This document shows, one piece after another, positions 6,915 to 51,124 of a stretch of DNA of 64,000 nucleotides. The stretch covers positions 148,185,229-148,249,228 of the forward strand of contig NC_061114.1 in assembly GCF_002878395.1 (NCBI RefSeq), given 5' to 3'. The first letter of the stretch is position 1; each line of letters starts with the position of its first letter. The position numbers and the translations under genes were made by a program. Source of the stretch: Capsicum annuum (lineage: Eukaryota; Streptophyta; Magnoliopsida; Solanales; Solanaceae). The notes below the pieces were generated by a model, which was not told the DNA's origin, ran no database searches, and was given only the letters and a program-made list of their open reading frames with translations.

Positions 6915-9900
6915 TATATAGTGACCCTCCAGGTTATTTTTGTTTTTTTCATTTTTAGTATTTCAAGCTTTCCTATGATGGTTACAGGTCATTAAGGACT
7001 TATAAAAATTATTGATTTAATTATTGGATGGTTTATTTAGATTTATTGATCAATTTTTATTTCGGAGCATTCATTGTTAAAAAATTAGTGTCTCATAAAA
7101 ACACATAGTAAATGGACTCAGATGGAAATCCTAACAACACTATCAACTCTAGAACAATAATTTTAGGCTCAAAGGACCCTTGGGCTGGATCCTAACGCTT
7201 CCAAACTCATATTGGTTAGAATTTGGTTAAAACAATACAAGGGGCAGCATTATTTGTTCATAACGGCACCTAAATAAATATTTTAAAAAGTGCTAATTTC
7301 TAGTACATCACATGAACAACACTATTATTCCTAGGCAAGGTTTCCTTAGAGACAAAAGGTTCCTCCTATGTGATTATTGTCTACCAAGATTGTGATTTCC
7401 TAGGTGAGGGTTCCTTAGAGATAAAAATAGTAGCCTAGGCGATGGTTCTAGCCCTTTTTAGGCTTGAACACCCCCTCATCCAACCCAAACCATTTTTATC
7501 CATTTCCTATCTTCCTTAAACACCATTTGAGCCCAAAAATAAGTTGATAAACATCAGTTTAAGGTTGTTGTTTTAACGGGGATGTCGAGGCAAGATTCAT
7601 TTTGTAAGAATCTTATATGTTTATTTTGTAAGAATCTTATATGTTTAGAGTGTTCTCTCTCTTAATTTCTCAATTTGTACTATTGATTTCTCAAATGTTG
7701 GGGCTATTTTGGGAAAGCTTATGAGCTCAATTTGTGCTAATGTTTGGGGCACGAGTTTAGTAAATCATGAGGGACCTAATTACAAATCTAATTAGGGGAT
7801 ATCATATGTGGGTCCCACAAATCTATTTTAGATTTAATTTTTGACAAAATACTTATATAACATTATGAGAATCATTTTACTCTTATTAATGTGCGATTTA
7901 TTATTTTGATATTGCAGCTTTCTTTTTTGGATCATGAATTAAAAAAGAGCAATTCATGAATGATTTGAGATTATAGTATAATTATAATGTGGGATTTAAT
8001 ATACTTTTCTCTGTGGGATTGTATAGTGCAAAGATTGCATGCTAGTTAAGGATTATAGGACATATTTATATCTAGTAATACTCAAATTTGACATATCAAA
8101 GAGTCTTTGAATAGAAATTTGATGTGAACCTTAGGATAGAACATCCACAATAGTTATAGGACCCTACTATCCTTAAGTATAGATTTTTATAATCATAGTT
8201 TGACATTAAGGATCCTTAGTTCAAGACTCACTGTATCACTTAGAATAATGGATGGTATTTCCTGCACTTAGCCCTTCTAGTAGCTTTAAAACCTTGTTTA
8301 CCTTAGTTTCTCAATTTACAGTGTTAATATTATAAAAATTGTATATTATTGGTCCAAAATACATGTTTTCGATACCAATTAGAAACCAAGTTACTAGGAC
8401 ATAGTTACACTACCAGTTGGAAATTAGGTTAGTACTTTATCTTATGAGAGGACTTGGTTATAATTATGAAAGTGGTGATAATTTGTGTTGTTTGGATACT
8501 GGTGATGGAAAGTATACATTTACATATTTTAATACTTATTTAGTGGTATGATTTTAGTTATGACCTTTGGTTTTACTACTATTTTCCTAAAAAGGGATTA
8601 CAATGGAGATTGTACCATCCTTATTCTTTGAGTATAATGTTTAACTAAACATAAAAATTTGGAAATTTAACCAAGGTTGATTTTGGTCCACTATTAATCT
8701 ACTCTATATTGCCTCTATCTTTTACTTTAGTCGAGTGTGATTTTGACCGTCTCTACACTATTATTCTAGTGTATTCCAAAACTTGATCTTGAGAAATGAA
8801 TTTATAGATTTATACTCATTTGGTATTGATTTGAGTTTGAGAACTTATTATACAAATATATCTTTTTGGTATTAGATGGAGTAGATGATTATAATGGTCA
8901 CTGAAAGTCTTAGTTTGGGACCAGGTAGTACATACGGATATCCCAAGTCTTTTATGGGCTCCTTCATTTGTGAGCCATCGAGTAAAATAAGGATGGTCTT
9001 TGTAGGTCCTGCCGTTATGAGCTACTAATCTAGATGAGGTGTATACACATGGTGTATTTTGTTATGATCATTTTATCTTACATTTATTCATTTATATACA
9101 ACACCTATTACATGTATAATTGATTGGCACTTATATCTATTAGCCTTATTGAGGTTGTGTAAGTATAAGCTCAGGTTACTATATGTCTGGTGGTTTTTTG
9201 AACCTTCTAGGCTTATGGGGTCCTAGTTATGTTATCATTTATCTGAACTAGTTAATTATTATTTTATTAGTTATTATGATTTGTTTGTGGAAGAATTGTA
9301 ATAAAATGGTACCCATGATTATAATACTCTTCTAATTTCTTTTCTCTAATTTTACTTTGATACATTAATGGTAGATAATCTCATAAATAGTTTTACTTTG
9401 GGTTAGAGACCCTAATTAGGCTAGTGTTATCTTTTCTTCTTTGTTTTGACCTTGAGATATTGGGTTAGCTTCTTTAGGATATTACATTTGAGTTTAGTCT
9501 AATAACATGTATATATATGTATATACATTCACATATATATAATATTATCGTGTATACCTCACTTTTATTACATATTCATATCTTATATGTATCCTTTGGC
9601 CTTGCATTGCTGATATATATTGTTCTTTCATTCTTTATTTGTATATTTTCTAGTTAGATATGGCATTACTCTTTAGTTCCTAAATATTTTTAAAATAGGA
9701 TAGTTATCCATATAGTTTCATTAGAATTGTTATGTTTGATTTCTTAGATGTATGCCTCTAGTTTATATTCCTACTTGTTTATTTTGCTTAAATTATCTTT
9801 TGAGCTCAATTGACTGGTGCCTATTAAGTACCACGTGTTTGTTACTCATACTATACTTCTACCGCCTGCAGATCATAGTAAAAGTTCTCACTATTTATGT

Positions 9901-10270
9901 GTTCATCCTGCAATGATTTGGGATGAGCTCTATTCATTTGAAGTTATTTCTACTCTCCCACTTATTGTTAGACTAATCTCTAAATTATATTTCGGAGATG
10001 TCTTGTATAAGTTTATTTTGAATTCTACTAACACTTCTATTTTATTAAAAGATCTTGGAATAACCTTACTAGTTTCTAGGGATATAGTTATATTATTCAT
10101 ACTTTCTTTCTCCTTGTTGTTTAGATTTTTTTTTATTTTTCTTTTTCATTTGTTACTAGCTATTTTGGATTGTGGTTTAGCTTACCTACTAGTGGGTTAT
10201 AATAGGTATCATCTTGACCTAATAAATAGGGTCATGATAATTTAGTAACCGAACATAGGTTGACCAGTGT
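6915..10270 (+). repeat. 5' LTR of the A/B gypsy element
   Basis: About 3.35 kb, homologous by eye over its length to 23346-26336 plus 41926-42120. Shared start: 'TGACCC(T/G)CCAGGT'. Shared blocks include 'ACCCTTGG(G/T)CTG', 'GATGTCGAGG/GACGTCAAGG', 'GTTGGGGCTATTTT' and 'TATAGGACCCTA'. It has a GC-richer repeat zone with 'TCCTAGGTGAGG' and 'CCTAGGCGATGG' units (about 7325-7450). Its end is placed by the degraded primer site that follows. The 142-codon open frame at 9817-10245 is not conserved in the other copy. Confidence 0.75.
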
Positions 10271-14107: not shown

Positions 14108-14112
14108 ATGTC
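14108..14112 (+). repeat. Target-site duplication of F, left copy
   Basis: ATGTC directly before the TGTAATGC start of the F 5' LTR. An identical copy follows the F 3' LTR at 23006-23010. Confidence 0.85.
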
Positions 14113-14496
14113 TGTAATGCGTCGCAAAATTCTCTTCCGGTCTGAGCCTTAGAGCATATTTTGGTAAAGCAAAAATCTGAGTCTAAAAATTTCAGAAATA
14201 TCCTCCCAAGTATGAAATACTTTGAATCTTATGGGAATCAATTTGAGCATGAATAAAATTCATATAGGTCCCCTAACTCATGGACGAGTTGAAAGCTTTC
14301 CTATCGTTCAAGTTTTAGTAACCGTCAAAATTTGGGTCAACTTCAATCGACCATAACTCTTTGTATATATCTAATTAAAGGAGCTACTATACATCAAATG
14401 AAATCTATTTTAATTATCTTTCCAACCATACCTATTTCTTCCAAAATCGATATCGGAGCAAAGTGTTGTGCTTATTTTACTCCAGAATGGCAAGTT

Positions 14497-14670
14497 GGAA
14501 AATGTGTGATGACATTTTTGATGGCCCGTTACATTTCTGACGACATTTCTGATGGCCTGTCAAATTTGTAATGACATTTTTGATGACATCATCAGCCTTA
14601 GGAAGAAACTCACAAAATCCATCCTTTTATGATGACATTTTGTGACGTCCTGTCACAAATGTCGTCAGCC
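14497..14670 (+). repeat. U3 hairpin array of F 5' LTR
   Basis: Repeated units with 'GATGACATTT', 'GATGGCC(C/T)GT' and 'AATGTCGTC'. The last unit, at 14631-14666, is a near-perfect hairpin: GATGACATTTTGTGAC pairs with GTCACAAATGTCGTC around a GTCCT loop. The array lies about 70 bases before TATA. Confidence 0.8.
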
Positions 14671-14739
14671 ATTTTTTAAAGCAATTTAGAAACATTTTTG
14701 CAAGGGTATTTTGGTCATTTTTCACCTTTTGTGAGCCTC

Positions 14740-14747
14740 TATAAATA
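14740..14747 (+). promoter_or_regulatory. TATA box of F 5' LTR
   Basis: TATAAATA, 24 bases after the end of the GGGTATTTTGGTC box. It is conserved in the 3' LTR at 20133-20140. Transcription would be expected to begin about 30 bases downstream. Confidence 0.75.
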
Positions 14748-17578
14748 TGAGAACCCACTTCTAAAACCCTAATTTCATCATTTTTCTCTTCCAATTCTCT
14801 CAAGAATATCTAATTAGGGTTTCATCAAGAACCCTAATCTTCTAAAGTTCATCCGTAAATCTTCAAGCTTTCTTCAAGAATCAAGCTCCTCATAGTGTGG
14901 GCTTCAAGAATCATTTATTACAAGTGCAGATAGAGTCTCAAGCATTAGAATTCATCCTATTTCATACTTTAAGGTATGTATATGTTGATTCTTGGATCCC
15001 ATTCATCGAAGAAGCTCAAGAACCTTTTTTAAAACTAAAAGATTTTTATGTTTATGAGTTGTTAATGATTTGTATGAGTTGAAATTGATGCTTAATGTGT
15101 TGTTGAGTTTTGATTTATGTTTGCCTACAAAATTTATGAGCTTTGACCGTACTATGTGGAATCCATGTGATTTATGTGATAGACCCTCTGGAAGTTGTTT
15201 TTTTTATGTGATATGTTCATGACTTTTGGGTGTAGAAATGGTTGAATAAGTGAAGCATGTCCCCCATAGGTTTGATAAAGAGCTTAGGTGAAGCATAAGG
15301 GCCATTATATTATGTTGAATAGGAAACCCCAAATTGTGAGTTAGTTTGTGCTTAGTGTTTGATAAAATGCCCAAGTGAATAAATTATTCCGTAGTAGTAA
15401 GAAATTCCCATATAAGAGTGAACCCGTGCATGTCTAATGTTTTGTTAAAGGACCTTAGTGAACAAATGGAGAGGTGATAGTAGTAAATTCCCCAATTATG
15501 TGCTCTTGATATATGTTAAGCTTTTAATACATGCCAAGTGGTTAGCAAGTAGGTTATGACGTGATATTATGACATTTCTTCAAGCTATATGATATCCAAA
15601 CACGTGTCACGATTGATATAGGTATGAAATAGCTAAGGTGAAACCTTGTTAAATGGAGTATGATTTAGTAGCATGTTTCCCCTACGTTACTATATGATTA
15701 TGATTCCGAGATGCCTAAAGTGGCCCCTCAGCGACTGTGAAAATGATTTGATGATTGTGATGATAATAAATGAATGTGTTAATGAAAGAACGATTATGCT
15801 TTACTTTTATGTCATCAAGTCCTGGAGGTATTTATAACCAACAATAGAGCTATTATCTATAGCCTATGTCAGTTTCTCAATAACTCCAGTCGAGCCATGA
15901 TTCTCAGAACTCAGTGAACTATAAAACTCTGTATCCTCAGACAAGTGCAGAACTTAAGAAAGCTCAGTAATCTCAGTTATCTCTATAATCTCTATATCTC
16001 TAGTAATCTAGCCTCAGTCCTGTAATCACCTCAAACTAATAGTAATTAAGTCATTCAATTCTAATCTCAGAAGCAATTCGAGTAATCTATTCAAGTCAGA
16101 TACAATAATTCGATACCTTTTCCGTCAAATGTGGAACTAAGTAATCTCAACATAACTCAGTTAGCTCTTTTGAGAAACATGACCAGTATCAGATTCAGCT
16201 CAGTTGTGTTCAATTAAGATTGTAGTTCAGAGACTTTCAGTTGGGAGTAGAAGCTAGCACCGAGCGAGGGAAGGGATGGCGGCTCTCAGGTCAGAGAGGC
16301 TGAGTATTTAAGAGCAATCCCTAAACTCCAGAACTGCGAAGCCAGTGCTGGATGTAGGAGTCCCCCATCAGTAGAGGTTGTCACCGTCAGAGAGGTTTGA
16401 CTATTATATTTCCTCAAGCTGACTTCTTCAGAGGGTCATCCCATCAGAGAGGCTTGACTAGAGAGGTATTTACTCGTTGCACGGTACCCTTCCAGTTGTG
16501 GTCATAGGTTGGACCCTACTTGTGGTAGGTTGGGGCATTTCAGTTAAGTAACTACTTCCCATAGTTACAGTTTTAGTTGCGATCTTTACAAATCAGAACT
16601 ATGTGATACAGTCATCTCTCTCAGTGAGGAACTCAGATAGTTCTATTGATTCATGGACCATCCCATCAGATAGGATTGGTCTGATATACAGATACTTATT
16701 ATCTTATCATATCTAGAGATCTCCCGTTAGATAGGCTTGATCTCCATCTCAGATTCTGTTGTGTATTTTTGTTGTCAGATTTCGACATGATCATACTTCT
16801 TATCATTGATAATCACTTCCAGAATAATCTATTGGAAAGATTGATATCTAATTGTGTCTGTCGAAAGCAGTAAGCTCAGAATTTAGTTTTTGATATATGT
16901 ACATCCAGATCCTCATTTATTAGTATCAGATAAATTAGTGATTCAGTATCTTAGTGTTAGTAGTGAGTTCAATCTATAGTTAAGTGGTATTCAAGTTTTA
17001 GTATCTAGAGTTGTGATGACTGTGTTCATGGTCTATGCATTCATGTATGAGTTCTCATGCGGCATCTTCATGATTATTCAGTTTAGATATTGTGCATGCT
17101 TGAGCCCTTGCATTAGCCTACCTCATCTAAATACTCAGTATATTCCTGTACTAATGCATTTGTGCTGTGGTTTTTATTTAACACCATAGGTTCAGAGGCA
17201 CAGGATCCAGAGTATTCTCAGCAGTTCAGTCCCAGTCAGCAACAGTAGCAGTGAGTCCTCTTCTTTCAAGGACGACTCTCAGTTTACTATTATTATTTCT
17301 AACTTTGTTTATTTTCAGTTGACGGAGTTAGTTGGGGACCGGTCCCATCAACTTCACAGTTCAGACTGTTTAGAGGCTTTTTAGAGGGACGTATTAGTAT
17401 TTAGTTTTCTGTATCATGAGTATTCTAGATGTGTTTAACCTTATGTCTAGTTTTTGCATTTATTTAAGATATTATGCAGTGTACAGGTACAAATATCAGT
17501 AAAGGGTTAGCCTCTAGTCCTTTGGGGCCATAAATATCGTGTGACGTGTTAGGATGGGATCTCAGGGTGTTACAAACT

Positions 17579-17590
17579 TGGTATCAGAGC
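17579..17590 (+). other. tRNA-iMet primer binding site of F
   Basis: Perfect TGGTATCAGAGC, four bases after the LTR end. It is complementary to the 3' end of plant initiator tRNA-Met. Confidence 0.9.
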
Positions 17591-17816
17591 CTAACTTAGT
17601 ATCAGAGGCTAAGGTTCCAGAGTATCCGAGGGAGTCTGATAAGCCGCATCTAGTAGAGTCTTGTGCATGGGTGTGTAGCGCACTACATTTATGTTCAAGA
17701 GGCTATAGGATGTTCTTAGGAGAAGTTTTTCTTGTTTCAATGATAATTTTGTGTGAATGATCATAAGCTCAAGTTGATCCTTAGTCTAATCAACTTTATT
17801 CTTTCATTTATAGAGT

Positions 17817-18941
17817 ATGCCTCCTCACAAAGACTTAGTCAATAGGGTTGATGATCAGCCCACTCAGCTAATAGATCCTGAAAATGAGAGTGTGTCACAT
17901 GCAGAGTTTCAGGCAGCTTTCTAGGCGTTAGCCAAGGTGGTGACAAATGTTTCTAGCAACCATCAGGCTGCAGTCCCCACCTCAGCAAGATGGAAATTCT
18001 ACCATAGCCAGGATTAGAAGCTTTATGAATATGAACCCACACGAATTCTTTGGGTCAGTAGTAGGTGAGGACCTGCAGTTTTTTCTAAAGGAGGTGAAAA
18101 AGATCACCCAAATTATGTATGTTTCTGAGAAAGAGAGTGTTGAGTTAGAATCTTATAAGTTGAAAGATATTGCTCCTGATGGGATAGTGACGTGGAATAA
18201 GAGTAGAAGGAAAAATGCAGCTTTTGTGACTTTGCTAGTGTTTCAGAGTGCCTTGGTAGATAGGTTTTTACTTATAGAGATAAGAGAATCTAAGATAAAA
18301 GAGTTCATAAACATAAGACAAGGTTCCATGACAGTGAAAGAGTATTGTCTTAAGTTTAATTAATTAGCTAAGTATGCTCCTGACTTGATAGCTGACCCCA
18401 GAGCGAGTATGATTAAGATTTTAACTGGGGTATCAAGTGATGTGTTGAAAGAGTGTAGAGCTACCATGCTTAATAGAGATATGGATCTTTCTATGCTAAT
18501 GATGCATACGCAACAAATTGAGGCAGATAAAATAAAAGAAAGAAAGAGAGTGAGTAAGAGAGCCAAGATAGGTAGTCGTGGTTTACCGCAGTCAGGTCCT
18601 CAAGGTCGTAGTAGTTCTCAGTAAGGTTGGATATTTTTAGTTCCAGCTTCATCTTCAGCTAGTGTACCCGTACCTATGTTTGGGGGTGTTAGGTCTGAGG
18701 GAGTGCCAAGCTCCAAAGCCCAGAGTAGTGATAGTAGTGTTCGAACCTATTTGCATTGTGGAAAGTGTGATAGGTGCCACCAGGGTGTGTGTGAGCTGGT
18801 AGTGATATATGTATTGGGTGTGTTGAGCCTGGCCATAAAAGACGAGAATGTAGAGTGCTGACCCAAAGGGGTAGACTTCATGTGTTTCAGGCTCGCCTTG
18901 ATCGGGAAGGATTCTCTAATATAGACCCGGGTATGTTATGA
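17817..18941 (+). pseudogene. gag of F (gypsy retrotransposon), broken
   Basis: It starts at an ATG giving 'MPPHKDLVNRVDDQPTQ', the usual N-terminus of this gag. After a stop and a frameshift, the capsid core reads 'RIRSFMNMNPHEFFGS', 'SVELESYKLKDIA', 'FINIRQGSMTVKEYCLKFN' (then a stop), 'LAKYAPDLIADPRASMIKI' and 'CRATMLNRDMDLSMLMMHTQ'. A basic, Ser-rich linker follows. In another frame comes an intact CX2CX4HX4C knuckle, 'CIGCVEPGHKRREC' (about 18808-18851). It ends at a TGA after 'DPGML'. The protein would coat the element RNA. At least two frameshifts and several stops make it non-functional. Confidence 0.85.
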
Positions 18942-19489
18942 GCCCTGCATCTTTGCGATATGTATTTTTAGATCCTTTTCTCCCATTTTGAGCTTATGTG
19001 TAAGCATGAGTCATGCATAGGTTTTAGATCTTGATCACTCAATTATGACCCAGTTTGTAGGTGCCCCGTGCACCGCCCCAGTATTTCAACGAAGTGTGTT
19101 TAGAGGGACATAGAGTCCCAAGGGGGAGATACCCTATAATATTATGATGTTGCATTTCATTAGATTCATCCAGATGCATGTTCAAATTTTCTTTATGAAG
19201 TTACCATCAGTCTTTATTGCATTGTCAAGTCATGCTTTCAAAAATCAGCTTAGCAGGACATCCATGCATCAGATAAGCATATGTGTTATGAGAATTCAGG
19301 TATGAGTAGATTCAGTTGAGTATTCCATGCATCAGATATGCATGCCCAGTTTGAGAACTCTATATGTCAGTCGTTCCAGTTGCATAGTCCTAATCTGAGA
19401 TGTTTTTATTTATTGGGTAAATTTTGTTGATCCGTATTCTCAGTCTATCAAGCGACATTCAAGGACGAATGTTCTGAAGGGTAAGAAAA
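18942..19489 (+). other. Non-coding block and polypurine tract of F
   Basis: No coding content where pol would lie. It contains the purine tract 'CCCAAGGGGGAGATAC' (19117-19132) and two copies of the hairpin motif CATGCATCAGATATGCAT or a close variant (19263-19280, 19326-19343). It ends 'AAGGACGAATGTTC' then 'TGAAGGGTAAGAAAA', the polypurine tract touching the 3' LTR. The same landmarks occur in the same order in G. Confidence 0.8.
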
Positions 19490-22400
19490 TGTAATGCCCG
19501 TAAAATCCTCTTCCAGTTTGAGCCTTAGAGCATATTTTGGTAAAGCAAAAATCTGAGACTAAATATTTCAAAAATATCCTCCCAAGTATGAAATACTTTG
19601 AATTGTGTGGGAATCAATTTGAGCATGAATTAAGATCATAGAGGTCCCCAACTCATGGACGAGTTTAAAGCTTTCCTATCGTTCAACTTTTAGTGAGCAT
19701 CATAATTTGGGTCAACTTCAATCGACCATAGCTCTTTGTATATATCGAATTAGAGGAGCTACTATATATCAGTTGAAATCTCTTTGAATTATCTTTCCAA
19801 CATACCTATTTCTTCCAAAACTGATGTCGAAGCAAAGAGTTATGCTTATTTTACTCTAGAATGTCAAGTTGGGAAATGTGCGACGATATTTCTGATGGCC
19901 CATCACATTTCTAACGACATTTCTGACGGTCTATCAAATTTCTGACGATAGTTCTGACGACGTCGTCAGCCTTAGGCAGAAACTTACAAAATCCATCCTT
20001 TTCTGATGAAATTTTTTGATGGCCTGTCACAGGTTTGACAGCCTGTCATAAATGTCATCCGCCATATTTTTCAGCAATTTAGAGATATTTTTGCAGGGGT
20101 ATTTTTGTCATTTCCCACCTTTTGTGAACCTCTATAAATATGAGAACCCACTTCAAAACCCTAATTTCATTATTTTTCTCTTCCAATTCTCTCAAGAATA
20201 TCTAATTAGGGTTTTATCAAGAACCCTAATCTTCTAAAGTTCATCCGTAAATCTTCAAGCTTTCTTCAAGAATCAAGCTCCTCATAGTGTGGGCTTCAAG
20301 AATCATTTATTACAAGTGTAGATAGAGTCTCAAGCATTAGAATTCATTCTATTTGAATGGTTAAGGTATGTAGATGTTCATTCGTGGGTCCCTTTCATCC
20401 AAGAAGCACAAGAACCCTTTTTAAAACTAAAAGATTTTTATGTCTCTGAGTTGTTAATGATTTGTATGAGTTGAAATTGATTTTTAATTTGTTGTTGAGT
20501 TTTGATTTATGTTTGCCTACAAAATTTATGAGATTTGACCCTAGTATGTGGAATTCATGTGATGTTTATGATAGACCCTCTGGAAGTTGTTTTTTCATGT
20601 GATGTGTTCATGACTTTTGGGTGTAGAAATGGTTGAATAAGTGAAGCATGTCCCCCATAGGTTTGATAAAGATCTTAGGTGAAGCATAAGGGCCATTATA
20701 GTATGTTGAATAGGAAACCCTAAATTGTGAGTTAGTTTTTGCATAGTGTTTGATAAAATGCCCAAGTGAATAAAATATTCCGTGGTAGTAGAAAATTCCC
20801 AAATAAGTCTGAACTTGTGCATGTCTAGTGTTTTGTTAAAGGACCTTAGTGAACAAGTGGAGAGGTAATTGTAGTAAATTCCCCAATTATGTGCCCTTGA
20901 TATATGTTAAGCTTTTAATACATTCCAAGTGGTTAACAAGTAGGTTATGACATGATAGTATGAAGTTTCTTCAAGCTATGCTATATCCAAACACATGTCA
21001 AGATTGATGTAGGTATCGAATAGCTTAGGTAAAACCTTGTTGAATGAAGTACGATTTAGTAGCATGTTTCCCTACGTTACTATATGATTATGATTCCGTG
21101 ATGCCTATAGTGCCCCCTCGGCGATTGTGAAAATGCTTTGATAATTGTGATAATGCATGAATGATTGTGATGATATATGAATGAACGTGATGATGAATAA
21201 ATGATTATGCTTTACTTTTATGTCATCGAGTCATGGGGGTATATATTCTCGACAAAAGAGCTGTTATCTATAACCCATTTTAGTTTCTCGATAACTTCAG
21301 TTGAGCCATGGTTCTCAGAACTCAGTGAACTATAGAACTTTGTATCCTCAGACAAGTGAACAACATAAGAAAGCTCAATAATCTCAGTTATCTCTGTAAT
21401 ATCTTTATCGCTAGTAATCTAGCCTAAGTCCTATAATCATCTCAGATCTAATAGTATTCAAGTGATTCAATTCTAATCTCAAAAGCGATTCGAGTAATCT
21501 ATTCAAGATCTGCATCGTTAGTCAGATACCATGATTTTATACTTTTTTTGTTAGATACAGAACTAAGTAATCTTAGCATAACTCAGTCAGATCTATGGAG
21601 AAACATGATCAGTATCAGATTCAGTTCAGTTATGCTCAATTAGGATTTCAGTTCAGAGTCTTTCAGTTGGGAGTAGAAGCTAGCACTGAGCGAGGGAAGG
21701 GATGGCAGCTCTCCCTTTAGAGAGGCCGAGTTGTTAGGAGTAATCCCTGAACTCCAAAATTCTTTAGCCAGGGTAGGATGCAGGAGTTTCCCATCAGTAG
21801 AGGTTGTCACCGTCAGAGAAGGTTGAGTATTATATTGCCTCAGGTCGACATCCTGTGATGGTCACCCCATCAGAGAGGCTTGACCAGAAAGGTCTTTACC
21901 CGTGGCATGGTATTGACACCCTTCAAGTTGGGATCATATGTTGGACTCCACCTGTGGTAGGTTGGGGCACGTCAGCTAAGTAACTATCCCCACAGTTGCA
22001 GTTTCAGCAGCGATCTTCAGAAATTAGGACTGTATGGTACAGTCGTCTATCTTAGTGAGAAACTCAGATAGTTCCATTGATTCAAGGACCATCCCATTTG
22101 ATAGGCTTGGTCTCATATACAAATGCTTATTATCTTATCATATCTAGAGATCTTTAGTCATTTAGGCTTGATCTCCAACTCAGATTCTATTGTGTATTCT
22201 TATTATTAGATTTGGACATGGTTATACTTCTTATCATTGATAATCACTTTCGGAATAATCTATTAGAAAAATTGATCTCTAATTCCGTCAGTTGAAAGCA
22301 GTAAACTCAGAATTTAGTCCTTGATGTGGGTACATTGAGATCCTCAATTATCAGTATTAGATGAGTCACTGATTCAGCATCTCAGTGTTAGCAGTGAGTT

Positions 22401-23005
22401 TAGTCTATTGTTAATTAGTATCCGAGTTTCAGTATCTAGAGTTGCGATAATTGTGTTCATGGTCGATGCATTCATGTATGTGTTTTCATGCAGCATCTTC
22501 ATGATTATTCAGTTTAGATATTGTGCATGCATGAGCCCTTGCATTAGCCTACCTCATGTACATACTCAATACATTCCTTTACTGACATTTGCACTATGGT
22601 GTTTTATTTGACACCATAGTTTCATAGGCACAGGATCCAGAGTATTCTCAGCAGTTCAATCCCAGTCACCAACAGTAGCAGTAAGTCTTCTTCTTTCAAG
22701 GATGAATCTTAATTTACTATTATTGTTTCTGACTTTGTTTATTTTCAGTTGACGGCGTTAGTTAGGGACCTGCCCCATCAACTCCACAGTTCAGACAGTT
22801 TAGAGGCTTTTTAGATAGATGTATTAGTATTCAGTTTTCTGTATTATGAATATTCATATATGTGCTGAAACTTATGGCTAGTTTCCAAATTTATTTCATA
22901 TATTATGCAGTGTACAGGTACATATATTAGTAAAGGGTTAGCTTGTGGTCCTTCGGGGTCATAAGCACCATGTGATATCTCGGGATGGGTTTTCAGGGCG
23001 TTATA
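19490..23005 (+). repeat. 3' LTR of F
   Basis: It begins TGTAATGCCCG and ends GCGTTATA. It is collinear with the 5' LTR, including the hairpin array (about 19875-20065), the GGGGTATTTTTGTC box (20096-20109) and TATAAATA (20133-20140). No function beyond the LTR is seen. Confidence 0.9.
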
Positions 23006-23010
23006 ATGTC
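23006..23010 (+). repeat. Target-site duplication of F, right copy
   Basis: ATGTC, identical to 14108-14112. Confidence 0.85.
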
Positions 23011-23345: not shown

Positions 23346-26336
23346 TGTATTGACCCGCCAAGTCATTTTCTCAATTTTATGCATGTTTGTTATTTCAAGC
23401 CTTTGTACGGTGGGTATAAGTCATTTATGACTTATTGGAACTGTCGTTTTGATTAACAAATAGTTTGTTTGGATTTTAGGCTGAATTCTTTATTTTTGAA
23501 TATTCACTGATAAAAAATTGGTCTTGCACCAAAACTAGTAGTAAATGAACTTGGTGGAAATTCATGCACTGCTATCTACTTTAAAACATTGATTATATAC
23601 TAGGGGGACCCTTGGTCTGAATCCCATGGTTTTCAAACATATTTTGGGATATTGGTCGAAAGTTAGTTAAAATAGTACATAGGGTTTTGGGCCAATATTT
23701 TTTCAAAATGACAATTGTTGGCAATTCCATCAATTCTGTTAAGTCCAAAATGAAGTTTTTGATGGGTTAGCATTTTTTTTTGTATCCAAGGGAGCCCTAA
23801 TAGGTTCAAAGTATACAAATGAAAAATTTGTGAAGTGTTGGTTTCTGGTGCGTTGCCTGAGTGACCTCCTTGTAAAGTTGGTGAGGTCACCTTAGTGATA
23901 GTGGTGTTACTAGGCAATAGTTGGTATCCAAGATTAAGGTCTCATTAGCGATCAAAAAGGTTCCCTAGATAAGGCCACCTTGGTGACCAAAATGGTTGCC
24001 GAGAAGATGGTTCTGGCCTATTTTAGGATTGTCCCCCTCCCCACCCTTGGGCCCAAACCATTATTCTCTATTTCCAACTTTCATAAATACTGTTAGAGAC
24101 TAAATATCAGTTAGGAAACGTCAATTTAAGACCGAGGCTATTATGGGGACGTCAAGGTAAGCTTTATGTCATAAGAATCTCATAAGTTTTGATCTTTCTC
24201 TCTCTTAATTTATTTATTTTTAATTATTTATTTCTCTAATGTTGGGGCTATTTTAGAAAGGCTAATGATTTTTATTTGTGCTCAAATTTTGGACAAAAGT
24301 TGCTGGACTCATGCGTGACATAATGATGCATTCAATTTTGGGATTCCATTCATGGGACACAAGAACCAATTTTTGATCTAAATTTTGATCCCGAGATTTA
24401 TATAGTAATATGGATATCTTTTCATCCTAATAATGTGTAGTTTATGATTTTGATAATGCAACATCATTTCAAGATCGTGGGATGAAAATGAGTGATTCAT
24501 TTATAGTTTGAGGTTGCGGTTCTGCTATGCTATAGTCTTCAGTCTATTGTTCTCCATTATATTATATAGTGCATAGATTTCATTCTAATAGGGATTATAG
24601 GACATGTTTATATCTAGTAATACTGGTGTTTGACCTAGATAGAGACCTTAGAATAGAAATGTGACCTAGACCTTAGCATAGGATATCCGCAATCATTATA
24701 GGACCCTATTATCCTTGATTATAGAATTGTATTACCATAAAATTATATTAAGGATCCTTAGTTTGAGACTTACCATATTAATTAGCAAATTGTATGGTAT
24801 TTTCTCGATTAGGCCTTCGTAATAACTTTATGTTCTTTTTCACTTAGATTCCCAATTTATGGTGTTAATATTATGTTTAATCATATATTATAAGGCCTGA
24901 GAGTATGGTTATGATGCCAGTTGTACTCTAGGTTAGTACTTTATCGTTCAAAAGGATTGGTTATAATTCTAGATACATATACACTTACGGTTCTATTATT
25001 TTGATACTGGTGATGACATGCATATGTTTTGGTTTATTTTCCTTATAATAGATTTGTTCCCACCTTTAATTCTTATAATTTATTCTTTTATAATGGAGAT
25101 CGTATCCACTTATTCTTAGTATGATACTTAACCAAAAAAAACTAATTTGTAAATTTTACTAAGATTGATTCCTATCCACTTTTAATGTACTCTCTTTTAC
25201 CACTACTATTTAACTTCAGATGGGAGAGATTCTAACACCCTATACACTATAATTTCAATTTAGTCCAAAACTTGATCACGAGCAATGAACTTACAAATTT
25301 ATACTCTTTTAGTCTCGATCTGAGTGTGAGCACTTTTTATTCTTAGATATATCTTTGGTACTAGAGGGAGTTAGAAGTCCTGGTTTGAGACTAGGTAATG
25401 TATATGGATATACCCAGTCCTATATAGCCCCCTTCATCAATAATCCATAGTTCTAGAAAGGATAGCTTGTGTAGGTTCTACCTTTGCAAGATATTATGTC
25501 AGAGGAGGTGTATACACTTGTTGCATTACGTTACGAATTATTTATCCTCCATTTTTTTATTTAGATACACTGCTTATCACTAGTATAATATGTTGTTTCT
25601 TATATCTATCATCCTTATGGAGGATTGTATAGGTATAAGCTATGTGTACTATTTGCTGAGTGTTTATTTGAACCTTCTCTGCTTATGGTTGAAGGTTTAA
25701 GTTATTGTTTGTTGGGACTAGCTAATTAATTTATTTTTTGTTATTATGGTTAGTTCATGGTAGTTGTAGTAAGATATGTTCTTATTAGGTTATCTCTTGA
25801 TTAGTCTCATTTTGGGTTAGAGACCTTGACTAGGCTAGTATTAACTTTCCTTCTTGGTTTTGAACTCGAGATGTTTGGTTGGTTCCCTCAAGCTATTACG
25901 TTTAAGTTTAGTCCATTATATATTTACATGGTATTACCATGTATCCCACTCGTTCCTAAAGTATTCATATCATATATGTATCATATGTCTATATATTACT
26001 AATATCTACCCTTTGTTCAGGCTTCGTTTGTATATTGGCTTGTGATATACGGCATTGCTATTTAGTTGCTAAATGATGTTGGAATAGGAAAGTTTATCCT
26101 TATAGCTATTTTAGCATTATTATGTTTACATACTTAGATAATTGTTACATGTTATTTATTCTTACATTATCTTTTGATCATTGTCGGTCGATGCCTACTG
26201 CATAACATGTGTTTTGTACCCATACTACAATTTTGCAGCTTGTAGATCATAGTATGAGTACTTGTTGTTGATGTGTACATCCTGCAAAGAGGGCATGAAT
26301 TAGAGATTTAGATTAGACTAGGCATTCGGAGTTGCT
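23346..26336 (+). repeat. 3' LTR of A/B, first part
   Basis: It starts TGTATTGACCCGCC and is collinear with 6915-9945. It is broken at 26336 by element D and continues at 41926. It has the same repeat zone ('AGGTCACCTTAGTGA', 'AAGGCCACCTTGGTGACC') before the leader. There is no coding content. Confidence 0.75.
26332..26336 (+). repeat. Left flank of D, probable diverged target duplication
   Basis: TTGCT precedes the TGTAACACC start of D. The other side (41926-41930) reads TTTAT, matching at 3 of 5 bases. Together with the uninterrupted A/B LTR on both sides, this fits an old insertion. Confidence 0.5.
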
Positions 26337-27660
26337 TGTAACACCTTGAAAATAGGTCTCGAGACACACATGGTGCTCCAGACTACAAGTAGTCTCAAGC
26401 TAACCTTGTAAGCCTTCTACTAAATTTTAAACTCATATTAAATAGGTTTATGAAATACTGAGTTTGAACAAATCTGCAATGAGTTTAAATGAACATAATG
26501 TCTGAAAGTACTTAACTAGGAAATCTGAATAACCAAAACTGTAAAACTGAATATATATGTCGATCGGACAAACCTCTAACACTACAAACTAGAGATTCAC
26601 TGGGACAAACTCCCAGCTGACTGGAACTAACTGACAATATTGAATCAAACTACTTTGATAAGTTCAAAAATTGAATAACTTGGTCCCCAAATTATAAGGA
26701 CTCACCAACTATCAGGATGCAGATGGAGATGCTTGAAATCACTCATGCTACTGAAACTGAGCACTTGAACCTACATTATTAAACAATGTAGCACATATAC
26801 TTATATATGGATCCGTACATCACGAATGTACTAACTATGTCAGGGTGAAAGCATTAGTAAAACAATATCACAATGTTTATAAAAACTTGTAAAAGGATGA
26901 ATGAGAAGCATGACTCATATTGGCCTGAATAACTGAAAATTAGAAATGATAACTCATGAGAAATAAAGCATACTGTATAAATCTTGTGAGGTATAACATT
27001 TAGTTCTAAAAGATGTACTTGTATGGTATCTTTAAATCATGTAATTAAAGGGTTGAAAGGACTCACTATTATATCGATAAAAAGAAAGCTGAAATATTAT
27101 GACTAATATCTGATGTAAAATAAATTCTGAATAAAACTGTGCGTCTTCACACTTAGATTCTAAAGCTTTTCTACAAGTCTTTGTTGTTAGGGATTTCTTT
27201 TAAAATTTTTTATGATAGGCTTTAGGAAGGTTCTTCTAAACGACATACACTGTGTGAGCTATCATAGTGTCCAACGTCTAGTTCTCCAAAGGGAAAACCT
27301 AACATTGGAGAGGTTTCATAATCTTTTCAAGGAGTATAACATTAGCTATGTGATAAAAATCTGTTTCTGCCTTCCATATAAATTGGAATTATCTGCATCT
27401 GTACCAACATTGGCTCATAGTTCTAGGGAAGTAGGATACTCTAATCCGACACTTATAAAAGACATACTGCTTACACTACTGAATAGAATTCAGCTAAAAA
27501 ACCATTGTCTCAGAGCTGGAAAGGTCAACTTACAAATCATCAAAGTTCAAAGGGAGTCAAAATAACTAAACACCTCAACACATAACTTTATTTTCAGGCT
27601 CTATGTGCTATAGGCGCATACTAAGGGATAAGCTGAGCTTGGAAAATATGGGGTATAAAA
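26337..27660 (-). repeat. 3' LTR of D, with a 1.2-kb internal deletion
   Basis: It shares both ends with the other D LTRs ('ACTACAAGTAGTCTCAAGC' near one end, 'TAAGCTGAGCTTGG' near the other) but is only 1324 bp. The part equivalent to about 33095-34320, which includes the hairpin array and promoter, is missing. The 117-codon open frame at 27212-27565 spans this deleted LTR and is not a gene. Confidence 0.8.
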
Positions 27661-27690
27661 ATACTCCCCCTTGGTAACATTCATCCCCGA
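27661..27690 (-). other. Polypurine tract of D interior 2
   Basis: The minus strand reads GATGAATGTTACCAAGGGG then GAGTAT, directly before the LTR. This is the usual chromovirus interior end. Confidence 0.75.
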
Positions 27691-27839
27691 ATAAGACTAA
27701 TTAACCTGAGGTTACTGAGTAACTGAGACTATAACTAGCATGAGTAAACTGATTTGAAATGCAAGAATTATCAAGAGAGTTACTATATAAAGTTGAGACT
27801 TTCTTAGAAACAATTAGGGTACTTTATTCACATATCTGC

Positions 27840-29060
27840 TTCTGCTTCCCAAGTGGTGCCCTCAATAGATTGATTTCACCAAAGAAAGTTGACTAAGGGA
27901 ACTTTTTTGTTCCTTGTTCTACAAATTTGGTGATAAACAATCTCAACTGGAATCTCTTCTTAAGAGAGGTTATCGTGAATATCAGTGGTTTCTAAGGGTA
28001 ATATAATTGTTGGATCACCAATATACTTCTTTAATAAGGATGCATGGATCACAGGGTGAACAGATTACAAATTTGTAGGAAACTCAAGCTCGTATGCTAC
28101 TTTCCTAACACGACTCAATTTCTTGTAGGGGACAACATATCGACGACTAAGATTCCACTTTTTTCAAATAAACTATGTCATCAACATTTCAACTCAAGAT
28201 CCTTTCGCCTCACATCTGCATAAGATTTCTGACTACTTTGAGTTGTCTTCAACCTCTGTTGAATAAACTAGACTTTCTCCATAGCTTTAAATACAACATC
28301 TAGCCCATTTAAAGAGGACTTACCCAGTTCAAACCAACAGATAGGTGACTTATATCTCCTCTCATAAAGAGCCTCAAACAGGGCCATCTGAATCTAAAAT
28401 TGTAACTATTATTATAGGAAAATTTTTTCAACGGCAGATGATCATGCCAACTCCCCTTGAAGTTATGAACACTTGCCATAAACATATTATCTAGAGTCTG
28501 AATGGTCCTCTCTTCCTGACTATTTTTCTGAGGATGAAAAGCTGAACTGAGGTGAACGTGGGTACCAAGACCCTTCTGAAAGGCTTTCCAAAAGTGAAAG
28601 GTAAATTGGGTGCCCCTATCAAAAATTACAGACAAAAGAACTCTATGTAATCAGACCAATTCTTTAATATACAACTTAGCATAATCTTCGACTAAGTAGG
28701 ACAAACGAACTAGTAGGAAATGGGCTGATTTAGTCAACCTATCAATAATAACACAAATCAAATCATGCTATTAACGGGGTAACCCTATTACGAAATCCAT
28801 GTTTACCTCTTCCCAATTCCAAGTAGTAATATTAAACTAATGCAAGGTGCCACCAGGCCTTTGGTACTGTTGACAAATATTACAATTATCCACAAAGTTC
28901 GCAATATCTTTCTTCATACTACTCCACCAATATATTTCCCACAAATCTCTATACATCTTAGTAGAACCTGGGTAAATGGAGTAAGGCACACCATGCGCTT
29001 CAGTCTAAATCCATTGCCTAAAATCATCAATGAACGACACTCATAATTACTGTGGTATCT
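27840..29060 (-). pseudogene. D interior 2: integrase and chromodomain-like end
   Basis: The clearest open piece is 28309-28635: 'FDRGTQFTFHFWKAFQKGL', then 'LSSAFHPQKNSQEERTIQTL' and 'KGSWHDHLPLKKFSYNNSY'. These are the second catalytic-Asp region and the Glu region of a gypsy integrase. The zinc-binding N-terminal part lies at about 28850-29050 and the chromodomain-like end at about 27840-28100. Many stops are present. Confidence 0.85.
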
Positions 29061-29299
29061 AAACACACCATCTCCCCCGTGGGAGAAAACTTCAAATTTC
29101 TACTCTCTGAATAATTCTTTAAACTTAACTAGACTGGGTTCCTTATTAGGTTTCTCCTTTACCTCGGAAACTAAAGACAATTTTACACTACTCTAGACCC
29201 AAAAATTTTTCTCAACAAAATCAACAAATCATATACCTAGTGTAGACAATTGATAAACTTGTCTGATCAACACTTTCTTATCACCCTCTACATGAGCAA

Positions 29300-30520
29300 C
29301 ACAACCCATTAACAGTCTACTAAGGGCGTCTTCCATAATGTTGGCCTTTCTCGGATGATAAATAAAACTCATGAATAATCTTTCAACAACTCTAACTACC
29401 TTCTTAGATAAATATTTAATTCCCTCTATACAAATACATATTACAGACTTTTGTGGTCCATAATAAAATCAATATAAACCCCATAAAAATAGCTCCTCCA
29501 GATATTCAAAGAAAATACAACAACAGCTAATTCAGTATCATAAGTAGGACAGTTCTTTTCATGTGGCTCAAACTATCTAGAGGCATAGGCTATGACTCTA
29601 CCTCTATGCATCAAAACACAATCCGAACCAACTCTAGAAACATCAAAATAAATAATGAACCCATTTGTACCATCAGGTAAAACTAAGATGGGGTTGAAGT
29701 GAGCGGAGCCTTTATTTCCTGAAAACTTTTCTCACAAGAATCAGACCACTGAAACTTAACTTTCTTCGGAGTCAATCTATACATAGGGGAAGAAATTGAT
29801 GAAAACCCCTCAACAAACCACCTGTAAGAGTCACCTAAACCCAAAAAACTCCTGATGACTGATGGTGAAATGGGTCTAGGAGAGTTTCTCACTACTTTGG
29901 TCTTTTAGGGTTCAACTCTAATACCGTTACCAGAAATAATATAACTGAGGAAAGCTACTGATCTTAGCTAGAATTCATACTTTCTAAGTTTGGCAAACAA
30001 CTAGTGGCCTCTAAGAGCTTATAATACAATTCAAAGGTAGTCTGCATGATCATGCTCACAATGAGAATAGAGTAGGATACCATCAATAAGAACTATGACA
30101 AACTTATGTAGGTACTATTTGAACACTCAGTTCATCAAGTCCTTGAATTCTTCTGGAGCATTTGTTAGCCCGAAATACATGACTAGTTATTCAAAATGAC
30201 CATAAAGTGTTCTAAAAGTTGTCTAAGTTAGTGATAGCCGGATTTAATGTCTATCTTAGAGAAGTAACTCGCACCCTGAAGTTGATCAAATTAGTCATCA
30301 ATTTTAGGCAGAGGGTATCTATATTTAATTATGAATTTATTCAGCTGACGATAGTCAATTCACATTTCCAGCGCACCATCTTTCTTTCATACGAATAGGA
30401 AGAAAGCACCATATGGAGAAACATTAGGCCTTAAGAAACTTTATCTAAAAGATCGTTGAGTTGCCCGTTAAACTCTTTAAGTTAGGCTGGAAACATACAA
30501 TATGGAGTAATGGAGATGGG
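29300..30520 (-). pseudogene. D interior 2: reverse transcriptase and RNase H, dead
   Basis: The RNase H connection piece at 29683-29892 reads 'SPSVIRSFLGLGDSYRWFVE' and 'KVKFQWSDSCEKSFQEIK'. Upstream, the reverse transcriptase active site at about 30078 reads 'VLIDGILLYS' where a working copy has IDDI, so the second catalytic Asp is Gly. Frameshifts break the rest. Confidence 0.8.
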
Positions 30521-30529
30521 CTTAGTATT

Positions 30530-31758
30530 ATGAAGATCAACGCCGAATTATATTTGTTTGCCGAGAGGTACCCCTGGTAAATCTTTAGGAAAAACATCCA
30601 AAATCTCATTGACTACACAGACCGACTGAATAGTTGGAGCCTCACACTTAGTGTCTATGACTCAAACTAAATGATAAATGCACCATTTAGAGATCAACTT
30701 TCTAGCCTTAATATATGATATGAAATGACTCTTGGGAGATACAAAATTCCCTTCCCACACACGGATTGGCTCATCTAGACACTGAAACTTCACACCTCGA
30801 GTGCAACAGTCTATAGATACACAACAGAATTGAAGCCAATCATGCCTAGAATAAGGTCACAGTCTACTATATCTAACTCTATTAAGTATGCTACTATGAT
30901 CTTATGAAGGATAGTGATAGGACACTTTCATTTGATTTATTTGGCAACAACCGAATCACCACTAGGGTAGAAACTAAGAAGGTCTTAGAAAGCTTTTCAG
31001 GATCTACTCAAAAATTTTCCACAACCAATAGAGTCACATAATAGAGATTTGACCCTGGGTCTAATAGCACATAAACATCAAGATGAAAACATGAAGCATA
31101 CCAGTAACAATGTATGGTGAGCTCTCTTTCTCCTAGCGAGATAAAAGAGCAAAGAGCTAATTTTTCCACAGACTACCACCAGTAGAGAATGATGTGCCCT
31201 GAAGAGGGGATGGGCGAGCTAGAGGAGTAGGTGCACTAGTACCCTCAGTCTAGGGATGAACATCCCTATTTATTTTCTTAGAATACGGTGCACTCCTTCA
31301 TTTAGTGACCCAATTTACCACATATAAAACAACCTTTTAGTCCCAACAAACACTCACCAGGATGATTTTTACCTCACTTAGAACATGTAGGGAAACTAGG
31401 GTTTCCACCTATACTACTCAAAGACCTGGACATAAAAGTTTTTCCCTACTGCTTCTACTTGGTTTTGGGTGCGGGGGAACTAGCAAAAGATGGCGTGGAC
31501 AAAGATAGGAGACCCTAAAACTTGAATGATTTCCAATGCAAATCTTGATTGACCATACTCAAACTGCCCAGTTCTAGCCTTCTTATTTACTGATGTGGAA
31601 ATGCAACCCAATGGTTGCCCTGAACATTGGCAATCACAGTTGGGACAATGTCTGAAAGATAGCCAAAATTCAGCATAAGACACATTCTCTTTCAAAGGAT
31701 CAATAGTCTAGGATGGCTAGTTATCATTTCTGTGAGCATTCGCTTTGCAAGGAGGCAT
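30530..31758 (-). pseudogene. D interior 2: gag and protease, with deletion in gag
   Basis: The gag begins at 31758 with 'MPPCKANAHRN'. At about 31590 it jumps from the N-terminal part to 'NKKARTGQFEYGQSR', which in interior 1 lies about 545 bp further on, so the capsid core is deleted. The knuckle at 31285-31340 reads 'CFICGKLGH' then a stop, then 'MKEC', keeping all zinc ligands. The protease region near 30830-30900 shows only fragments. Confidence 0.8.
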
Positions 31759-31948
31759 ATTCTGTCATGTAAGAGTAGGAATTAAATGCAGATAAAAATA
31801 ACTGTAAGAATAATGGATCATGAGAGAAAAGAATGATTTCCTAAAATCTCCCATGCCGTCTTACTCATAAATGCAGTGCGCTTCACACCCATGATCCATA
31901 CTCTATGTAACGCGACTTGTATGATTCCCTAGGACTCTTTAAACCTTA

Positions 31949-31962
31949 GGCTCTGATACCAA
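31949..31962 (-). other. tRNA-iMet primer binding site of D interior 2
   Basis: The minus strand reads TTGGTATCAGAGCC next to the middle LTR. It shows that the middle LTR acts as the 5' LTR of interior 2. Confidence 0.85.
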
Positions 31963-31964
31963 AT

Positions 31965-34520: not shown

Positions 34521-34550
34521 ATATCTCCCCCTTGGGAACATTCATCGTTG
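34521..34550 (-). other. Polypurine tract of D interior 1
   Basis: The minus strand reads GATGAATGTTCCCAAGGGG then GAGATAT, touching the middle LTR. Confidence 0.8.
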
Positions 34551-34759
34551 AATGAGACTAATTAAGATGAGGTTACTGATGAATTAAGACTATAACTGGC
34601 ATACACAACTAAAAGCATGACTAAACTGATTTGCAAATGCATGATTATAAATAGAATGACTATATAAAGTTTAGACTTAGAATGAAAAGAGATGATCTGA
34701 GGAAACATTTTACCGTACGCTGAATCTGAACTTGCAGCCAAAAGATAAGGGTACTTGAT

Positions 34760-35050
34760 TCACATATCTACTTCTTCTTCCCAAGTGGCACTCTCAATGG
34801 ATTGATTTTGCCAAAGAACTTTGACCAAGGGAACTTCATTGTTCCTTTGTTTGGAAATCTGGTGATCAAGAATATCAACTGGAATCTCTTCATAAGAGAG
34901 GCTATTGTGAATATCAATGCTTTGTAAGGGTACTACAATAGCTGGATAAGCAATACACTTCTTTAACAAGGATACATGGAACATAAGGTGAACGGATAAC
35001 AAGTCTACAGGCAACTCAAGCTTGTATGCTACTTTTCCAACAGGACTCAA
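34760..35050 (-). pseudogene. D interior 1: chromodomain-like integrase C-terminus
   Basis: 96 open codons: 'VAYKLELPVDLLSVHLMFHV', 'SLLKKCIAYP', 'SLSYEEIPVDILDHQ', 'NNEVPLVKVLWQNQ' and 'ESATWEEEVDM'. In chromoviruses this region carries the chromodomain that guides integration to heterochromatin. This piece is intact but cut off from the rest of integrase by stops. Confidence 0.85.
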
Positions 35051-37500: not shown

Positions 37501-37509
37501 TGGAGATTG

Positions 37510-51110: not shown

Positions 51111-51124
51111 TTTTTCTTAGAGTA
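51111..51124 (+). repeat. LINE target-site duplication, right copy
   Basis: TTTTTCTTAGAGTA, identical to 43032-43045. Confidence 0.9.

Follow-up and report, generated by a model that had tools for sequence, protein, structure and literature searches.

A gag-only LTR retrotransposon family of pepper with an apparently exchanged capsid segment

It is a puzzle how LTR retrotransposons without enzymes of their own attain copy numbers in the thousands. Two gag-only families, F and G, of the 3.2-Gb genome of Capsicum annuum are described here. Both occur in the window, a stretch of 64,000 bp, together with the pol-bearing relatives A and D. F and G have a common backbone, and each capsid is closest to that of a different one of the pol-bearing families compared. 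The initial annotation had read F as a complete element bounded by identical 5-bp duplications and ordered as LTR, primer site, gag, non-coding block, polypurine tract and LTR, with no pol between gag and the 3′ LTR. As shown in Table 1, the flanking duplications are identical, every part was located with small corrections only, and no pol was found in the 548-bp gap after gag. The LTRs are very long as described, and their share of the 8,893 bp was corrected from 79 to 78%. The primer site TGGTATCAGAGC is presumably of the initiator Met tRNA type, and the 18 letters that follow the LTR in this region are identical in F, A and G.

Table 1. Features of F and its relatives in the window (positions count from the first letter of the window).
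Feature	Position	Strand	Basis or remark
F 5′ target-site duplication ATGTC	14108-14112	.	sequence; letters identical to 23006-23010
F 5′ LTR, 3,462 bp, TGTAATG...TTACA	14113-17574	+	sequence, LTR alignment
F primer-binding site TGGTATCAGAGC	17579-17590	+	sequence
F leader	17591-17816	+	identity 76% to A and G, 61% to D
F putative recombinant segment, gag N-terminus and capsid, D-like	about 17807-18551	+	site, quartet and tree tests
F gag remains, 374 codons and stop in the aligned family	17817-18941	+	21-copy alignment
F linker and zinc knuckle, grouping with G	18552-18941	+	knuckle 18810-18851, frame-shifted in F
F post-gag non-coding block, 548 bp, partly conserved in G	18942-19489	+	alignment
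F internal second polypurine tract CCCAAGGGGGAGATA	19117-19131	+	exact in F
F terminal polypurine tract, decayed	19477-19489	+	alignment
F 3′ LTR, 3,516 bp, ending TTATA	19490-23005	+	sequence, LTR alignment
F 3′ target-site duplication ATGTC	23006-23010	.	sequence
D1 interior: gag with F-like capsid, RT, integrase, chromodomain	34521-39452	-	RT by homology to the A RVT_1 stretch
A primer site, leader, gag N-terminus and capsid	55069-55997	+	resumes at L044:2918
G target-site duplication AGGGA, within gag of A	55993-55997	.	sequence
G 5′ LTR, 5,135 bp including a 1.6-kb tandem duplication	55998-61132	+	sequence comparison
G interior: primer site, gag remains, post-gag block, no pol	61133-63464	+	sequence comparison
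G 3′ LTR	63465-64000	+	runs 2,920 bp beyond the window to TTACA, then duplication AGGGA

F itself is old and dead. Its LTRs are 87.7% identical (K2P 0.136, 3,453 columns compared), and its gag, which starts at 17817 and ends with a TGA at 18939-18941, is disrupted by three premature stops in the codon alignment, one extra base between about 17920 and 17980, and the loss of one base near 18793 in the zinc-knuckle region. This deletion is private to F among the 21 aligned copies and explains the apparent loss of the zinc knuckle, so the idea that F lacks one was rejected. Another copy, L016, is without part of the same region. The best piece of F gave a weak Pfam gag match below the curated cut-off (E 0.0027), while a less decayed copy of the family reached E 5.7e-17, and Retrotrans_gag was above the cut-off in two pieces. 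A protein database search with a 138-aa piece of F gag compared four candidates and gave no hits; its length limits and content make it uninformative.

Only one F copy, a decayed one, lies in the window, and LTR elements commonly suffer deletions, so F could be a full Tekay/Del element that underwent a one-off internal deletion. The initial annotation had asked for many copies with an intact gag and the same short interior, and had named pol in most relatives at 18941-19117 as evidence to the contrary. Among the best 40 of 13,596 candidate genome matches, F included, all 39 other interiors run unbroken over the junction of gag and the non-coding block in one alignment, and none has pol there; the ranking favours interiors without pol, so pol-bearing relatives of F may exist. 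The terminal TGA, codon 375, is present in 19 of 21 copies, and a 27-mer specific to the block occurs at 6,258 places of the genome compared with none for the reversed control. In the 20 fetched relatives no RT was found with pieces of the D RT, integrase and chromodomain as queries, and the integrase or chromodomain matches at three loci (L011, L014 and L028) all lie beyond the element ends.

The copies also arose by separate insertions. Outer ends could be set in 13 of the 20 fetched copies and not in the other seven. Seven of these 13 have exact target-site duplications, F being the eighth element with one, and these differ among copies, which makes it unlikely that all copies spread by segmental duplication. 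For the remaining six, L012 has one mismatch, L014 and L027 have no duplication, and L018, L024 and L025 are tandem units that lie next to another primer site or polypurine tract and have no exact duplication. Dating covered 10 of the 20 fetched copies; L014 (87.2%) and L027 (88.8%) were added later, L018 has no 5′ LTR end, and seven are undated. The family thus has LTRs with duplications, gag as its sole coding region and a uniform, repeated structure as in TR-GAG elements, and its recognisable 374-codon gag frame sets it apart from LARDs, whose interior has no coding capacity. The expected intact gag was not recovered, as the frame is broken in F and in 20 of 20 fetched copies. These results support a real gag-only family of the TR-GAG type and exclude a single deletion as far as interiors were scored.

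The second gag-only family is consistent with this. G sits nested inside the gag of A, and parts of its post-gag block are homologous to that of F, which further supports the gag-only reading. A one-off deletion in F is extremely improbable. The internal polypurine tract CCCAAGGGGGAGATA is found exactly in G (62836-62850) and as the terminal tract of D (34522-34536); a fourth place has two mismatches, against a chance expectation of 0.07 at two or fewer. The terminal tract is better preserved than in F in most of the 12 of 20 fetched relatives that entered the alignment of the post-gag block. A reading of the internal tract by eye as a buried LTR junction was rejected: the eight letters that equal the start of the D LTR are found in F-type elements and not in G.

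Pepper reportedly has Tekay/Del chromoviruses and non-autonomous derivatives of them, as Park et al. are said to have described in 2012. A and D, with their pol domains and related gag, are probably of the same stock. F and G have no pol, and the derivatives of the 2012 report may include these families. The sequence of A was followed as far as RT and carries protease, zinc knuckle and RT. In D the chromodomain follows the integrase, as in Tekay/Del elements (Pfam Chromo E 7.1e-06, Integrase_H2C2 E 4.5e-08). From the gag, protease and chromodomain features, the stock of these families is probably Tekay/Del. D-like chromoviruses with a related gag had been put forward as candidate sources of enzymes. 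The relationship held mainly for the N-terminal and capsid part of gag: BLAST of the D LTRs against the F LTRs showed no similarity, in contrast to the matches of the F LTR with G and A, and the linker and zinc-knuckle region of D is the most distant one. The pol-bearing relative with the leader and LTR blocks of F is A, which the initial annotation did not name.

The leader, LTRs, zinc-knuckle end and post-gag block of F group with G and A, and its capsid segment groups with the pol-bearing family D. The diagnostic sites (F=D vs F=G) were 7:26, then 115:37 and then 22:97 in successive stretches, a split matched by 0 of 200 permutations in a sample of 9 of the 21 F copies, 5 D and 7 G; the other 12 F copies were also omitted from the trees and were included in the 21-copy mosaic test, in which 20 copies showed the mosaic. 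The exception, L024, was counted as failing as its extracted piece has no tail columns, probably because a second tandem unit was hit. At third codon positions the counts were 38:19 against 12:42. The quartet sites FD|AG, FG|DA and FA|DG were 82/7/5 in the capsid and 12/19/7 in the tail, where the difference between 19 and 12 is modest. The trees of capsid and tail, with one and two copies of A, respectively, were in conflict (AU p 0.000155 and 0.0031), although these p-values are optimistic because the identity tables from these data had already been seen when the groups for the AU tests were defined, and the site tests take columns as independent. F thus appears to have acquired its capsid segment from another, pol-bearing family of the same genome. 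Capsid identity between F and D is just 63-71% or so, and the donor would therefore have been related to D rather than D proper.

The same pattern might arise without recombination if one tree held for all of F, with a fast capsid in A and G and a fast linker in D. Linker and capsid do differ in evolutionary speed, the breakpoints lie at domain borders, the tail retains its 12 FD|AG sites, and the unrooted leader quartet leans to FD|AG (3 vs 1 and 1), D being mainly just distant there (23 D-only sites). However, the topology changes and not only the distance, the switch is visible at third codon positions, and the F LTR resembles those of G and A and not that of D, so we regard a single tree as quite improbable. 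An exchange in the other direction is unlikely, too. There the gag-only ancestor would have had a D-like capsid, kept in F, and G would have taken its capsid from A; the A-G identity of 74-82% in leader and capsid compared with 60-62% in the tail, where G is nearer to F, agrees with that history. But it requires an A-type capsid foreign to the stock of F, G and A, or further events, while one exchange in F accounts for all segments. The direction therefore follows from parsimony, with one event against at least two.

Whether the family needs its gag was judged from the pattern of changes. No open full-length gag was found in the 21 copies (F and the 20 fetched ones), premature stops recur in up to 7 of 21, and within the family third positions were no more frequent among shared variants than among singletons (p 0.51), which gives no sign that the last expansion required gag. 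In the tail, the F branch carries 8, 9 and 11 changes at the three codon positions, a weak third-position excess. The missing or weak codon-position signal and the recurrent stops would suit a family that moves as a pure RNA parasite, with gag as a neutrally decaying passenger. Against it, no premature stop is common to more than 7 of 21 copies, simulated neutral drift at the branch length of the F tail left the tail stop-free in only 6% (the share is larger at shorter branches), and the comparison between families showed a third-position excess in gag. We consider a passenger gag somewhat unlikely.

F is quite probably a dead copy of a large TR-GAG family of Tekay/Del stock, with a single pol loss in common with G and a D-like capsid gained later. 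The loss of pol was most likely a single event in an F/G ancestor derived from an A-like pol-bearing element; the homologous post-gag stretches and the common internal polypurine tract point to this shared origin. The gag of the F family closes at a stop of its own, close to where the protease coding region starts. Later, the F lineage would have swapped its gag N-terminus and capsid for the D-like version, probably by template switching between RNAs co-packed in one particle. F has retained the leader and LTR ends as well as the nucleocapsid end and the polypurine tracts, and A-type enzymes may therefore still have accepted it as a substrate. With the D-like capsid, its Gag could have joined D-type particles. 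A and D are accordingly candidate helpers from which enzymes would be borrowed in trans. Quite tentatively, and with slightly more doubt than belief, we propose that gag-only elements fit their helpers by capsid exchange: they would preserve the parts that mark their RNA and DNA for copying and change the capsid module to suit the particles of another pol-bearing family that is abundant at the time. F with its D-like capsid and G with its A-like one would be two solutions on one backbone, and the conserved internal tract would be a working second plus-strand start. The F/G pair lets the determinant of helper choice be tested, capsid against nucleocapsid and RNA leader, and recombination between families is a possible route to a change of helper in a large plant genome filled with retrotransposons.

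TR-GAG elements were reportedly described by Chaparro et al. in 2015, and F resembles them in its two LTRs and single gag ORF without pol. BARE-2 and LARDs, both named in PMC6696364, are like F non-autonomous LTR elements presumed to depend on helpers. BARE-2 reportedly has no working gag and keeps pol, the reverse of F, and LARDs code for nothing. A TR-GAG element of ATCOPIA63 transposed in Arabidopsis ddm1 (PMC8704663). For the TR-GAG elements of 195 plants in a database, the length quartiles are 3,608, 4,837 and 8,054 bp (PMC10025401), compared with 8,893 bp and LTRs of about 3.5 kb in F. Non-autonomous elements of Capsicum are treated in general in PMC7076952, and in the accessible portions of the literature on Capsicum TR-GAG elements, gag recombination or modular exchange, and pepper Del derivatives, the families F and G were not recognised. 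In the maize chromovirus CRM1, recombination between elements gave new, recently active subgroups (Sharma et al., 2008, as described in PMC2776974). The parents there were two variants of one subfamily, whereas the F capsid apparently came from a family with unrelated LTRs. F is therefore of the known TR-GAG kind, and differs from the known elements in its apparently recombinant capsid and second polypurine tract, both of which look new.

Element F, the gag-only LTR retrotransposon of the window, was complete as the initial annotation had proposed, with ATGTC duplicated on both flanks. Its very long LTRs, put there at about 3.5 kb, measured 3,462 and 3,516 bp, and the stretch of about 550 bp described as free of pol was found to be 548 bp between the gag stop and the 3' LTR, without recognised coding similarity. 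The two LTRs were 86% identical by BLAST and 87.7% by MAFFT (3,453 compared columns; K2P 0.136). At plant substitution rates (per site and year) of 6.96e-9 and 1.3e-8, this divergence places the insertion about 10 or 5 million years ago, respectively.

Coordinates of elements F and G and of other features in the window
Feature	Position	Content or remark
F, whole element	14113-23005	LTRs and interior
F interior	17575-19489	primer site, leader, gag remains, post-gag block
F gag stop	18939-18941	TGA
F post-gag block	18942-19489	
G 5' LTR	55998-61132	
Tandem duplication in G 5' LTR	57477-60684	1.6 kb, 92% identical
Tandem repeats near G LTR starts	56385-56686, 63832-64000	about 80 bp
G interior	61133-63464	
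G post-gag block	62502-63464	
G 3' LTR	from 63465	extends 2,920 bp past the window
D-type tandem	26336-41925 (minus)	LTR-interior-LTR-interior-LTR
Third LTR of D-type tandem	27644-26336	middle lost
RVT_1 match	44154-44459 (minus)	E 3.2e-09
Open frame	45832-46368 (minus)	178 aa
Related stretches	7396-9916, 23961-26290, 42129-42916, 51111-52513 (plus)	66-76% alike pairwise where matched

The F interior was searched against the 3.21-Gb assembly, in which the window lies at G000:C4:148185229-148249228. The best 40 of 13,596 first-look candidates were scored, F among them. All 39 others were 80-87% identical to F and gave a single alignment that began no later than query base 26, reached at least base 1687 and so crossed base 1367, the junction where pol would sit; 35 of the 39 also had about 70 bases absent from F, followed by a further matching piece. 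Since these interiors are continuous over the junction, F belongs to a real family, as had been suggested, rather than being a single deletion.

Twenty of the 39 copies (L009-L028) were fetched, and the outer ends could be defined in 13. Exact 5-bp duplications were present in 7 of these 13: CATGT, ACTAT, ATTAT, TTGTC and CTAGT, together with GGCAT and AAGGG, which were read from the flanks of L013 (LTR start mutated) and L010. The duplication of L012 had one mismatch, and none was present at the element ends of L014 and L027. L018 and L024 continue into another primer site and L025 is preceded by a polypurine tract, so these three look like tandem units without duplications of their own. L020 was grouped with them, the marks being an additional primer site or a polypurine tract next to the copy, or overlapping LTR repeats; F elements therefore occur as tandem units too. 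The LTRs were 3.45-3.73 kb and the interiors 1.94-1.99 kb in the eight fetched copies with both LTRs complete, and LTR identity was 86.7-95.2% across 12 dated copies. Queries with the RT, integrase and chromodomain pieces of D, a pol-bearing relative, gave no RT match in any of the 20 fetched loci, and the integrase or chromodomain matches in three of them (L011, L014 and L028) fell outside the element ends. A 27-mer around the internal polypurine tract occurred at 6,258 genomic places with up to 3 mismatches (reversed control, 0), a count that may take in part of G, the second gag-only family, and thus describes the gag-only stock, not F alone.

In the alignment of F with the 20 copies, gag is a frame of 374 codons starting at 17817, with a terminal TGA common to 19 of the 21. 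Copies with intact gag, named in the initial annotation as one sign of a real family, were not found among the 21: the frame was broken in all of them, with 2 to 11 premature stops each. Any one premature stop was common to at most 7 copies, and the 1-bp deletion that breaks the zinc-knuckle frame of F was unique to it; F also has a 1-bp insertion upstream of this deletion. A 266-aa open stretch of L014 matched Retrotrans_gag in Pfam (E 5.7e-17), and the source elements probably carried an open gag. Variants shared by at least 3 F copies were no more concentrated at third codon positions than singletons (p 0.51), so constraint on gag in the last F burst is unsupported. A third-position excess was clear in the gag core between families F-G, F-A and A-G (p 1.6e-5 to 5.5e-8), but these comparisons also cover time passed in pol-bearing ancestors.

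Family G has AGGGA on both flanks and is inserted within the gag of an element A, which resumes after G and is there 85.5% identical to a copy of A that has pol. The G interior gave 26,936 candidates, and the best 40 were scored, G among them. One alignment reached at least base 2,242 of 2,337 in 37 of the 39 others, and the remaining two aligned to 2,015 and 1,917; gag ends near base 1,419, so all 39 extended beyond it. G is thus a second gag-only family, nested in its pol-bearing relative. The duplication inside its 5' LTR is younger than the divergence of its LTRs, which are 82-84% identical. For A (13,819 candidates, 40 scored), gag led on into zinc knuckle, protease and RT in the two copies read downstream, and L042, an A copy, had RVP_2, zf-CCHC and RVT_1 Pfam matches, all above cut-off. 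For D (9,128 candidates, 40 scored), RT, integrase and chromodomain were found within the window and in all four loci that were fetched; the 102-aa RT piece had no Pfam match of its own and is called RT because it is homologous to the RVT_1 stretch of A.

The gag of F proved to be a mosaic. Mean leader identity was 76% for F-G and F-A and 61% for F-D. Over the gag N-terminus and capsid, F-D reached 63-71%, compared to 53-65% for F-G, 53-60% for F-A and 74-80% for A-G, while over the linker and zinc-knuckle end the values were 64-68% for F-G, 42-48% for F-D, 53-59% for F-A and 60-62% for G-A. Diagnostic sites (columns fixed within families) supporting F=D versus F=G ran 7:26, then 115:37, then 22:97 along three segments, and the best-fitting breakpoints were 17806/17808, ten bases upstream of where gag starts, and 18550/18552, where the capsid part ends; 0 of 200 permutations matched this fit. 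At third codon positions the ratio was 38:19 in the capsid and 12:42 in the tail. Quartet sites for FD/AG, FG/DA and FA/DG were 82, 7 and 5 in the capsid (one A copy), 12, 19 and 7 in the tail (two A copies), and 3, 1 and 1 in the leader, plus 23 D-only sites; capsid and tail differed in FD/AG against the rest (Fisher p 7e-10). The capsid tree joined F with D (support 100/100) and rejected F+G (AU p 0.000155, log-likelihood 229 lower), and the tail tree joined F with G (100/99) and rejected F+D (AU p 0.0031, log-likelihood 19.9 lower), p-values that are optimistic because the groups were named once the identities had been seen. The pattern held in 20 of the 21 F copies taken singly, the last (L024) being without tail columns.

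The simplest history is a single loss of pol followed by capsid exchange in the F line. Through one loss of pol, an A-like element would have given rise to a gag-only ancestor shared by F and G; the A-type capsid would have been retained in G, and the F lineage would have acquired a D-like one. Template switching between packed RNAs is the usual recombination route of retroelements, and the exchange may have taken this route. Capsid exchange in the opposite direction is possible, but it requires more events than the history of one loss and one exchange. Since gag-only elements encode no enzymes, these must be borrowed. The D-like chromoviruses proposed earlier as helpers do have a related gag in the capsid segment, but both D LTRs matched none of F's at E <1e-3. 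The F LTRs matched those of G over 1.1-1.2 kb (71-74%) and the partial LTR of A over 0.4-0.5 kb (72-73%). A, which has the same RNA- and DNA-level signals, and D, which has the same capsid type, are both candidate helpers.

Parts of the post-gag blocks of F and G are homologous, and the tract CCCAAGGGGGAGATA is exact in both; it is also the terminal polypurine tract of D, beside the D LTR. The post-gag blocks of F and of 12 of the 20 copies were examined for the 12-letter core. In 9 of these 13 it was present, with no more than one mismatch, both internally and adjoining the 3' LTR. Central polypurine tracts elsewhere start plus-strand DNA inside the element, and the conserved second tract may do so within F-type elements. 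The post-gag blocks also contain ATGCATCAGATATGCAT repeats (up to 3 mismatches), with 2-3 per block in the 13 of the F family and 4 in G.

Derivatives of pepper Del are reportedly named in the title of Park et al. 2012. TR-GAG elements, in which gag is the sole coding region, are known, one being mobile in Arabidopsis (PMC8704663), and a database covering 195 plants lists them (PMC10025401); Del elements make up 34.9-41.7% of three Capsicum genomes (PMC5664825), and recombination between elements is known in maize CRM1 (PMC2776974). In the accessible literature on Capsicum TR-GAG elements, gag recombination and pepper Del derivatives, neither a gag-only family with the capsid alone exchanged nor paired polypurine tracts in such elements were found.

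Elsewhere in the window, the repeat pairs of the D-type tandem were 74-80% alike, so it is no recent duplication. The RVT_1 match outside these elements appeared LINE-like by eye. The 178-aa open frame had no Pfam match at E 0.01 and contains an ITTRSGK stretch reminiscent of Athila-type elements. The four related plus-strand stretches, two of which flank the D cluster, are perhaps LTRs of another family.
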